Source: Planctomycetaceae bacterium (GTDB lineage: Bacteria > Planctomycetota > Planctomycetia > Pirellulales > Pirellulaceae). Taken from it: a stretch of DNA of 64,000 bases. Of this stretch, positions 50,267 to 53,326 are shown piece after piece. Within the stretch, counting starts at the first letter, position 1. Each line of letters opens with the position of its first letter. The position numbers were made by a program, and so were the translations under genes. Location: positions 1 to 64,000 of the forward strand of contig JAJTFC010000002.1 in the NCBI GenBank assembly GCA_021298315.1. The letters are read 5' to 3'. The notes under the pieces are model-generated. The model saw nothing but the letters and a program-made list of their open reading frames with translations, was not told the DNA's origin and made no database searches.

Positions 50267-50516
50267 GATTTGTGGTATTGATGATCCACAAATCAAGCTC
50301 TATCGGCGGTCGGGGTTTTGCGGGAAGACTCGACCGGCCTTCCTCCTGGGTTGGAGCAGCATAGAGCCGCGGACTTGGCAGTTACTGGGTCAATTGCCTG
50401 TCGGTGGTGCTTCACGGTAGAGCTTAAGACTGAGCGTCGGGGAGTCCCAAAAGGCTCTCCGACGCCAGGGAACACCGGCAAGCAGGCCGGCCCAAACGGG
50501 CCGGCCTGCTTCGTTT
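50267..50516 (+). ncRNA. Candidate structured RNA (family unknown) with intrinsic terminator
   Basis: Hairpins GATTTGTGG/CCACAAATC (50267-50294), CGGTCGGG/CTCGACCG (50307-50336), GGCAGTT/AATTGCC (50377-50398), GCGTCGGGGAG/CTCTCCGACGC (50434-50465), then a terminator. No Rfam family recognised by eye. Confidence 0.45.
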
Positions 50517-50654: not shown

Positions 50655-51698
50655 ATGCTCGGTCATGGCGTTTTTTGGTTGCTCGACCCGATCATTCATC
50701 TTTCGGGCCCCACGTTTATGTGGTTCTTCTGCTTTCTTGCCACGTTGACTCTCCTGGCCGTTTTTGTTTTGGTTCAATACACGCGAAGGTCTGATCTGCC
50801 CGATATGAGGATCCCCGATCAGCTTGATCCCTTTAAAATCGCTTATCTAAGGGGAGGTGATTCCGAGGTGATTCGCACGGCGATGGTCGAGTTGGTCGAG
50901 CAGGGTTGGATCATCCAAGATCCAACTGAAAAGCCGTCTGCTATCAAGCCGCCTAAGTGGAAGACGGATCTACAAGGAAAATCGCTCGCGGGTTTCGAGC
51001 CCTTGCAGAGAATCTTATTGGAGAACTTTCAGGTTCCGGGCAAGGGGGATTCCGTGTTCGATCCCTCGATCGTCGCAAAGGTTCAGGCAATTACCGAGCC
51101 CTTCAGAAAGTGGGTGACTGAAGAGGAACTCTGGACCGTCAGGGACAAGGACAAAAATCCGATGGTGCCTCGGGCTGTTTGGTCTTCGTTCTTGATCGTA
51201 GAAGGGCTAGGAGTTTACAAGCTAATCCATTCGATTTCGGAGCATCGAAACAATGTCGAGTTTCTCGCCTTGGGACTCTTGATGACAGCTTGCCTATTCT
51301 ATGGCGTGACGCGTCGCCGTCGATTGAGCAACCGGGGAGAGAAATTACTTGATGATATTCAAACGGCTTGCAAGTCTGTGCGGAATCTGAAGTTCGCGAC
51401 TCCGGTCGTTCTCACAAACTCTAGCGAGCAATCGCAGGATCGAATCGAGTATGCGGCCAGTGGTATTTCTATGCCGCTTCTTGCGATGGGTGTCTTTGGC
51501 ATCTCAGCTTTGGAGGGAACTACCTTGAATCCGTTATACATGTCCTATCGCAAATCTGCTGTCAACGCTTCAGGCTGCAGTGCGGGTGGATGCGGAGGGG
51601 GCTGCGGCGGTGGATCGAGCTGTGGTGGAGGATCGAGTTGTGGTGGAGGATCTAGCTGCGGCGGTGGAGGATGCGGTGGCTGCGGTGGTGGTGATTGA
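50655..51698 (+). CDS. TIGR04222-like membrane protein with C-terminal Cys/Gly repeat tail
   Basis: DQLDPFKIAYLRGGDSEVIRTAMVELVEQGWI pattern, TM segments, tail SGCSAGGCGGGCGGGSSCGGGSSCGGGSSCGGGGCGGCGGGD. Confidence 0.85.
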   Translation: MLGHGVFWLLDPIIHLSGPTFMWFFCFLATLTLLAVFVLVQYTRRSDLPDMRIPDQLDPFKIAYLRGGDSEVIRTAMVELVEQGWIIQDPTEKPSAIKPPKWKTDLQGKSLAGFEPLQRILLENFQVPGKGDSVFDPSIVAKVQAITEPFRKWVTEEELWTVRDKDKNPMVPRAVWSSFLIVEGLGVYKLIHSISEHRNNVEFLALGLLMTACLFYGVTRRRRLSNRGEKLLDDIQTACKSVRNLKFATPVVLTNSSEQSQDRIEYAASGISMPLLAMGVFGISALEGTTLNPLYMSYRKSAVNASGCSAGGCGGGCGGGSSCGGGSSCGGGSSCGGGGCGGCGGGD

Positions 51699-51731
51699 GT
51701 TTTTCGATCTTAGTGAACAAGAGATTCTCGA

Positions 51732-52574
51732 ATGGATTTTTCCAATTTACCGCGACTCGGTGTGGGCATCGGTTATCGAGAACCGTTCTTGTCGAAGTTG
51801 TTCGAACACCGCAACCGGATCGATTTCCTCGAAATTACAGCCGATCACTACTTTGAACCAATCGATTCGAAATCCGCAGAGTTGCAACTGCTTGCTCGCA
51901 ATTTTCCATTGATTCCGCACGGGCTGGCCATGTCGCTTGGAAGCGCCGAAGGTCTCGATGCAGGGTATCTGAAGATGTATGCGAATCTAGTGCATCAGCT
52001 AAAGCCTGCTTGGTGCAGTGAACATATTGCATTTACCCGTGGAGGCGGAATTGATATCGGTCACTTGACCCCTTTACCGAAAACCGACGCGGCTCTTAGG
52101 GTTCTCCACGACAATATCGCTCGCTTGCAGGATTCGATCCAGACACCGCTGATCCTAGAAAATATTACCGATACGATCCGCTATCCATCCGAGCAGTATG
52201 ACGGTGCAGATTTTCTATGCAAATTGTGCGAACGCAATGACGTTGGATTGCTCTTGGATGTAACGAATCTTTTTATCAACTCACAAAATCATCGATTCGA
52301 TCCGGTAGAATTCTTGCACCGATTGCCCCCAGAGCGAATCGTTCAACTGCACTTTGTTGGCGGCCATATCGAGCAGGGCGTTTGGGTCGATAGCCACAGT
52401 CGATCGACTCAAAGCGAGATTTGGGATCTGTTAGAGCAAGTGGTTCATTATGCTCCTGTCAAAGGCATGATCCTTGAACGCGACGAAAACATTCCGGATC
52501 TAAAAGAGTTGGCCCCCGAGTTAGAGCATGCAAAATCCATCGTCGCACGAGTCCAAGCTACGCAAAGAGCTTGA
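51732..52574 (+). CDS. DUF692 / MNIO family (multinuclear non-heme iron oxidative enzyme-like) protein
   Basis: LPRLGVGIGYREPF, WCSEHIAF, LILENIT, LLLDVTNLFINSQNH, QLHFVGGHIEQGVWVDSHSR, LERDENIPDLKEL: family motifs with conserved His/Asp/Glu. Confidence 0.9.
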   Translation: MDFSNLPRLGVGIGYREPFLSKLFEHRNRIDFLEITADHYFEPIDSKSAELQLLARNFPLIPHGLAMSLGSAEGLDAGYLKMYANLVHQLKPAWCSEHIAFTRGGGIDIGHLTPLPKTDAALRVLHDNIARLQDSIQTPLILENITDTIRYPSEQYDGADFLCKLCERNDVGLLLDVTNLFINSQNHRFDPVEFLHRLPPERIVQLHFVGGHIEQGVWVDSHSRSTQSEIWDLLEQVVHYAPVKGMILERDENIPDLKELAPELEHAKSIVARVQATQRA

Positions 52575-53034
52575 GCAACTTCAAGCATCCTTGGCCGCCC
52601 GTCTGGTGTACCCGGAACGTTCTATCGAATGTTCCAGTTTCGATCGACAAGAACTTGATCGGGCCGCCGAAACATTGATTCGCAAGCGACTCTCGCAAAC
52701 TCGTTCGCTACTTCCCGAAAGTGTAAAACATTTGGGTAAGAATTATCGCCGATGGTTTCGAGTGTACGCTCAATCGCACCATTTCGATGGCCACCGAGCT
52801 ATTTTGCTCGATGCGATTCATTTTGCCGACTGGATGCTCGTTGAGTTGAAGAAATCCGATGGCTCGTCGGTGCAGACCCAACAAGATACTCGGGTGCTGG
52901 AAGACTCTTTGCGTTGGGAACAAGAGATGTGCCGACTACGACTCAGTCGCTTCCGGGTGCGTTGGCTCAGAACCGCGCATGGTGTCCATCTGATGGTTCG
53001 AGCAGGCAAATTTCTGCGTGTGTGGAAATTATAA
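52528..53034 (+). CDS. Hypothetical protein, likely partner of the DUF692 protein
   Basis: 168-aa ORF overlapping the DUF692 3' end by 47 nt, same strand; no recognised domain. Confidence 0.65.
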   Translation: MQNPSSHESKLRKELEQLQASLAARLVYPERSIECSSFDRQELDRAAETLIRKRLSQTRSLLPESVKHLGKNYRRWFRVYAQSHHFDGHRAILLDAIHFADWMLVELKKSDGSSVQTQQDTRVLEDSLRWEQEMCRLRLSRFRVRWLRTAHGVHLMVRAGKFLRVWKL

Positions 53035-53039
53035 AGTCA

Positions 53040-53326
53040 TCCGATGAACGCTGATAGAAAACCGGACCGCTGATAGACGCTGAAGAAAAGACCCGACCGC
53101 TGATGGACGCTGATGAACGCTGATAGAAGACCTGGACCGCTGATGGACGCTGATGAACGCTGATAGAAAAGCCTGAGAGTTTTTTGGTTAGGAGTCCTGG
53201 CATAAGCGTTCATTAGTGTTCATGAGCGGTTGAAAAATCGGGGGCCTGACATCAGCGTTCATTAGTGTTCATCAGCGGTTGAAAAAGACCGGGCCGCAAG
53301 CATGAGTGTGCATCAGCGGTTGCGGA
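53040..53326. repeat. Intergenic repeat cluster, CTGATGAACG-type units, in opposite orientation on the two sides
   Basis: Left: ACCGCTGATGGACGCTGATGAACGCTGATAGAA-type copies; right: reverse-complement copies CAGCGTTCATTAGTGTTCATCAGCGGTTG. Confidence 0.88.

Follow-up and report, generated by a model that had tools for sequence, protein, structure and literature searches.

The cassette and its products

Three genes in a row lie in the window (the whole stretch of 64,000 nucleotides that we analysed): they encode a membrane protein, here called the carrier, an MNIO enzyme and a third protein, ORF3 (Table 1). The initial annotation had described consecutive same-strand genes separated by a gap of 33 nt and joined by an overlap of 47 nt, and these coordinates and the three ORF lengths agree with ours. 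Its family names are also correct, as both TIGR04222 and DUF692/MNIO are found above the profile cut-offs. The hairpin stands between an upstream LRR gene and the cassette, and since the cassette starts after this strong terminator-like structure it is probably a transcription unit of its own. The three-gene order was found again in related genomes. The source assembly comprises 5.3 Mb in 205 contigs and is about 90% complete; the best matches of the MNIO, at 82-83% identity, come from planctomycete and 'Pirellula sp.' MAGs, and such named relatives assign the window to the Pirellulaceae. The gap 3' of ORF3 (window positions 53068-53295) contains tandem repeats, with CGCTGATGGA units and a 49-nt unit present twice.

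Table 1. Positions of the cassette genes and associated features in the window.
Feature	Position	Strand	Basis
Terminator-like hairpin, 14 pairs (11 G-C), then CGTTTTTG	50480..50511	+	Consensus scan only
TIGR04222 membrane protein (carrier), 347 aa	50655..51698	+	TIGR04222.1 profile match
Cys/Gly/Ser tail C308-D347, proposed MNIO substrate	51576..51695	+	Tail features conserved, 73 carriers
MNIO (DUF692) enzyme, 280 aa	51732..52574	+	PF05114 match; ligands aligned on TglH
ORF3, putative MNIO partner protein, 168 aa	52528..53034	+	AlphaFold2 model, VIA-align match to TglI

The carrier scores 76.1 bits against TIGR04222 (curated cut-off 43) and belongs to this family. In its AlphaFold2 model (mean pLDDT 82.9) the transmembrane segments correspond to helices 18-44, 170-196 and 201-219, a soluble YLRGG domain is formed by residues 45-169, and the tail is disordered. 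Among solved structures no significant relative of the model was found. The tail holds 8 Cys in 40 residues and ends in CGGCGGGD. At the DNA level a CGGCGG-like tail pattern is present in only two ORFs of the whole genome, the carrier tail and a YTV-repeat protein, which argues that the Cys tail is more than chance.

The YTV-repeat protein (L160:1-1575, contig 171 of the same genome) has an internal Gly-Cys run (CGGCGGCGGCGG). The DNA pattern was rejected as a marker, being too common across 149 Pirellulaceae genomes. A TIGR04222 paralogue of the window genome, encoded on contig 147, lacks a Cys tail, and no MNIO is linked to it. Further, TIGR04222 relatives weakly match DUF2207_C; for the DUF2207 membrane proteins neither a required Cys tail nor a link to MNIO genes is known to us.

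The enzyme matches PF05114 (MbnB_TglH_ChrH) over residues 10-271 with 271 bits, where the cut-off is 25. By alignment to TglH its iron ligands are H63, H98, E143, D176, N179, H207, D220, H222 and E249, corresponding to H71, H107, E151, D184, N187, H216, D229, H231 and E258 of that enzyme (PMC10880893). Missing ligands were to count against the initial annotation, and all nine are present. They are conserved in 81/81 sequences, the single exception being D176N in L146. The top NCBIfam models are BufB (NF050167; 228.8 bits, equivalog cut-off 310) and HvfB (192.5 bits, cut-off 360). Both scores are under the cut-off, which places the enzyme outside BufB, and the two are the closest named enzyme families. 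Their products are 5-thiooxazoles (PMC13097082).

ORF3 has no significant family match in Pfam or NCBIfam, and a sequence search against the PDB gave nothing useful. Its AlphaFold2 model, built with 59 relatives, has a pLDDT of 93.6 and six helices and three strands, arranged as a helical domain followed by a short, three-stranded, RRE-like end. When 996 chains were compared to it with VIA-align, the best two matches were both TglI of the TglHI holoenzyme (8hi7_A with Z 10.4 over 145 residues at 3.1 A, and 8hci_A with Z 10.0), and the unrelated chains that come next have a Z of 7.5 or less. MbnC is matched with Z 5.8 (7dz9_C) and 4.9, while 3dee is not among the matches listed. By Foldseek alone MbnC is fifth and insignificant. 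One ORF3 relative matches DUF2063 below the cut-off (E 0.0086).

Since the confident model matches TglI best, and also MbnC, ORF3 is on structural grounds a shortened TglI/MbnC-like MNIO partner of the kind named PME-type 2. Such partners follow the MNIO directly, have no DUF2063 match over the cut-off, and combine an NGO1945/TglI-related fold and a helical N-terminal domain with a full or truncated RRE, all of which is seen here. The earlier proposal that ORF3 is the recognition partner thus gains support from the structural match. A recent preprint reports that the mixed-valent di-iron state, in which the enzyme is active, depends on HvfC, the analogous partner (PMC13419390). The window resembles TglHI and MbnBC both in the fold of the partner and in the iron ligands. 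However, TglI has 269 aa compared to 168 in ORF3, and the substrates of these systems are small soluble peptides.

Distribution of the cassette and variation of the carrier

We surveyed 80 loci, collected by MNIO similarity only. ORF3 is found in 76/80, and 67/80 have a carrier with the tail on the same strand and at most 4.5 kb away; the conserved neighbourhood on which the initial annotation was to stand or fall is therefore present. Of the 13 carrier-less loci at least five run into the end of a contig (L110, L116, L132, L142 and L155). In a Nostoc locus (L094) an ORF on the opposite strand, which reads as transposase-like, occupies the expected carrier position, and in L154 (Plesiocystis) a short Cys-rich ORF replaces the carrier. 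In the three Bacteroidota loci only the MNIO was seen, with neither carrier nor ORF3.

The loci span about ten phyla, among them Planctomycetota, Verrucomicrobiota, Acidobacteriota, Cyanobacteriota, Pseudomonadota, Myxococcota, Bacteroidota, Armatimonadota and Vulcanimicrobiota. Among Actinomycetota, Nonomuraea combines MNIO and ORF3 with a pair of TIGR04222 proteins that both have the tail. A plasmid of Tsukamurella tyrosinosolvens, of the same phylum, encodes a tandem TIGR04222 protein (L173:2010-3989) whose two Cys tails are internal and terminal; it adjoins an MNIO and a 61-aa ORF that resembles a shortened partner. Several of the loci have two or three tail proteins for a single MNIO. In L087 (3263-4374) a TIGR04222 carrier gene is broken into ORFs of 83 and 287 aa that overlap, which is a frameshift or a sequencing error.

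The Pirellulaceae serve as a control. ORF3 is present in 14 of 149 genomes; 12 of these are the genomes that have a tail-type MNIO, and in all 12 it adjoins this enzyme. At 28 other MNIO loci of the family ORF3, carrier and tail are each missing (22 of them were examined within 1.5 kb only). In three genomes of the window's genus MNIO, TIGR04222 and ORF3 are all absent together. The counts should be read with phylogeny in mind, of which they are not independent. The MNIOs of L072 and L073 are tail-type. Solitary ORF3-like genes were seen in two genomes without a PF05114 match (L169:4715-5188 and L170:5071-5553).

There are 73 tail-bearing proteins, 44 from TIGR04222 and 29 others. The others are either 3-TM proteins (motif GPEFLxxY...FExxGxxR...GMHKW), bare or with an N-terminal zinc ribbon, or single-TM anchors of 65-100 aa that have little beyond the membrane anchor and the tail; one of these (L102, 6517-6720) consists of one TM segment, then RR, then 9 Cys. 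The tail consists of 53% Gly, 21% Ser and 21% Cys. Gly or Ser follows 431/435 of the tail Cys, and 65/73 carriers have a C-terminal CGGCG plus small residues, the usual end being CGGCG(G/S/D).

The hairpin of the 3-TM carriers aligns with TM2-TM3 of TIGR04222 (HHalign probability 88.5%, E 2.7e-6, 48 columns). Because this holds with the tails removed, the two carrier types are probably related, though distantly, and differ in their soluble parts, and the idea that they are unrelated was rejected.

In the MNIO tree the enzymes linked to TIGR04222 and those linked to 3-TM carriers form two main groups, while enzymes with single-TM carriers are found at three separate places. Thus the carrier varies, whereas the enzyme pair and the tail stay. 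Of the arguments available for the tail as substrate this is the best one, and at the level of sequence it points to the Cys tail itself as the target of the enzyme.

Published relatives and the side of the membrane

The initial annotation had presented the pairing as a candidate new one. It is not new: TIGR04222 proteins beside MNIO genes were already described by Antoine et al. 2025, who proposed the Cys-rich C-terminus of a TIGR04222 subset as MNIO substrate, defined the PME-type 2 partners and showed an example from Pirellula staleyi (PMC12452194). The published TIGR04222-MNIO-PME-type 2 loci have the same gene set and the same tail-substrate proposal as the window cassette, which is another member. 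That study reports no experiment on the TIGR04222 group (PMC12452194). It found PME-type 2 partners at ≥10% of TIGR04222 loci (PMC12452194), while here, within one MNIO clade, ORF3 is present in 76/80. What our survey adds is the near-constant partner, the constant tail on varied carriers, the Pirellulaceae control and a topology that leans cytoplasmic.

The 'adjamnio-I' precursors of the same study have 122-293 aa and 8-21 Cys and go with MNIO-PME-type 2 (PMC12452194). Compared by these size and Cys limits alone, 11/29 non-TIGR04222 carriers fit, and the group may overlap with the zinc-ribbon/3-TM carriers. The captophorins, i.e. bufferins, oxazolin and fontiphorin (BufABC, HvfABC and FonABC), have Cys-Gly targets and need a partner, as proposed for the window. 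However, their precursors carry Sec signal peptides, whereas the window substrate would be the end of a membrane protein, and their partners are DUF2063 (PME-type 1). With a multi-pass membrane protein as carrier and a partner without a significant DUF2063 match, the cassette falls outside the bufferin/captophorin RiPPs. Further, the EGKCG context of oxazolins is absent from the window tail, a point against the modification model given below.

On which side of the membrane the tail lies depends on the carrier considered. The 3-TM carriers have no fourth hydrophobic segment. Their K+R residues number 11 ahead of TM1, 37 in loop 1, 20 in loop 2 and 37 behind TM3, and individually (n=22) 17 read tail-in, 2 tail-out and 3 tie. 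Five of the six single-TM carriers also read tail-in; the start of the sixth is doubtful. From such charge and hydropathy patterns we lean towards a cytoplasmic tail. A 'surface function', as initially suggested, is doubtful, since the topology of the non-TIGR04222 carriers points inwards.

Antoine et al. 2025 concluded that the tail is periplasmic (PMC12452194), in contrast to the topology favoured here. The tail would then be modified in the cytoplasm, cross the membrane via a fourth hydrophobic segment and act like a tethered bufferin. We hold this to be possible but somewhat doubtful. By hydropathy count alone, 28/44 TIGR04222 carriers have four segments and are tail-out, a reading that depends on the fourth segment; in the model of the window carrier, however, this is a 14-residue helix (273-286), short for a membrane span, and the 3-TM carriers, most of which read tail-in, have a hairpin that can be aligned with TIGR04222. 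The tail-in majority of single-TM carriers argues in the same direction. A periplasmic tail is compatible with tail modification and competes with the cytoplasmic placement only.

Proposed modification of the tail

We favour, as reasonably probable, the reading that the tail is modified by the MNIO together with ORF3, because of the iron ligands, the TglI-like partner, the conserved linkage and the constant tail on varied carriers. The Cys-Gly tail of the membrane protein would be oxidatively modified in the cytoplasm, with ORF3 holding the tail or the carrier and helping the iron centre to reach its active state, and each Cys that precedes a Gly or Ser would take its turn in the active site. 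By analogy with bufferins, oxazolin and fontiphorin the likeliest product would be a 5-thiooxazole, with a change of -4 H (about 4 Da) per Cys; in fontiphorin, 4 H are lost per Cys to give a 5-thiooxazole (PMC13097082). The end state would be a tail that is tethered to the membrane, never released, and binds a soft metal, probably copper. Among the recurring neighbours of the cassettes no metal or export function was found, and the lack of a recurrent family with an evident role in copper or metal handling counts against this model.

Against this reading, the same tail is also found elsewhere. A subfamily of TIGR04222 proteins of about 500 aa has it with no MNIO or ORF3 beside the genes, and eight surveyed genomes with such proteins have no MNIO at all (G130, G081, G147, G066, G082, G027, G137 and G128, in the last of which the tail itself is masked). 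The tail is therefore not diagnostic of modification, and its presence in these genomes indicates that it can be of some use without modification. A search beside the MNIO-less ~500-aa genes for an alternative modifying enzyme found no neighbour that they share. The Pirellulaceae members of this subfamily (L057-L067) have a CGGCGG tail and an extra N-terminal domain, often in an MNIO-free genome.

These tails, and the observation of Antoine et al. 2025 that one third of TIGR04222 genomes are without MNIO (PMC12452194), would fit a tail that works through free thiols, binding metal or forming disulfides, and that stays unmodified in many bacteria; the cassette MNIO would then make only an accessory change to a few Cys, or protect them. 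We consider this unlikely, as tail, MNIO and partner are linked almost throughout the cassette lineage and not at other MNIO loci. It is more unlikely still that MNIO and ORF3 act on another, unannotated small peptide, with the TIGR04222 gene a mere neighbour: the short Cys-rich ORF of the Plesiocystis locus and the three Bacteroidota loci would agree with it, but no other recurrent Cys-rich ORF was seen and the tail is kept when the carrier type changes.

Returning to modification of the tail by MNIO and ORF3, a broader and more tentative suggestion is that the two form a dedicated system, which would oxidise a portable C-terminal Cys-Gly tag on varied membrane proteins at the cytoplasmic face and so give tethered metal-binding tails. 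If true, this would be a post-translational tagging of whole proteins, common to TIGR04222, 3-TM and single-TM carriers in about ten phyla, and the tails would stay permanently tethered instead of being released or secreted as peptides. MNIOs are known mainly as enzymes of peptide natural products; should they also label the tails of ordinary membrane proteins, oxidation of Cys would count as a way of modifying proteins that has a role in the cell. With 65-70 aa and 8-10 Cys, the single-TM carriers are of a size that allows direct testing.

Two other families recur beside the cassettes, both without a family match (Pfam/NCBIfam for the first). A protein of about 245 aa is found in 25/80 cassettes, mostly directly 5' of 3-TM or single-TM carriers (L133:2124-2885, L102:5756-6475 and 23 further loci); it has a YGxxAR motif and reads as nucleotidyltransferase-like. 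In verrucomicrobial loci, mostly with single-TM carriers, a lipoprotein-like family stands directly 5' of the MNIO (L102:3656-4195, L112:5413-5961, L156:5354-5962 and L126:4764-5969).
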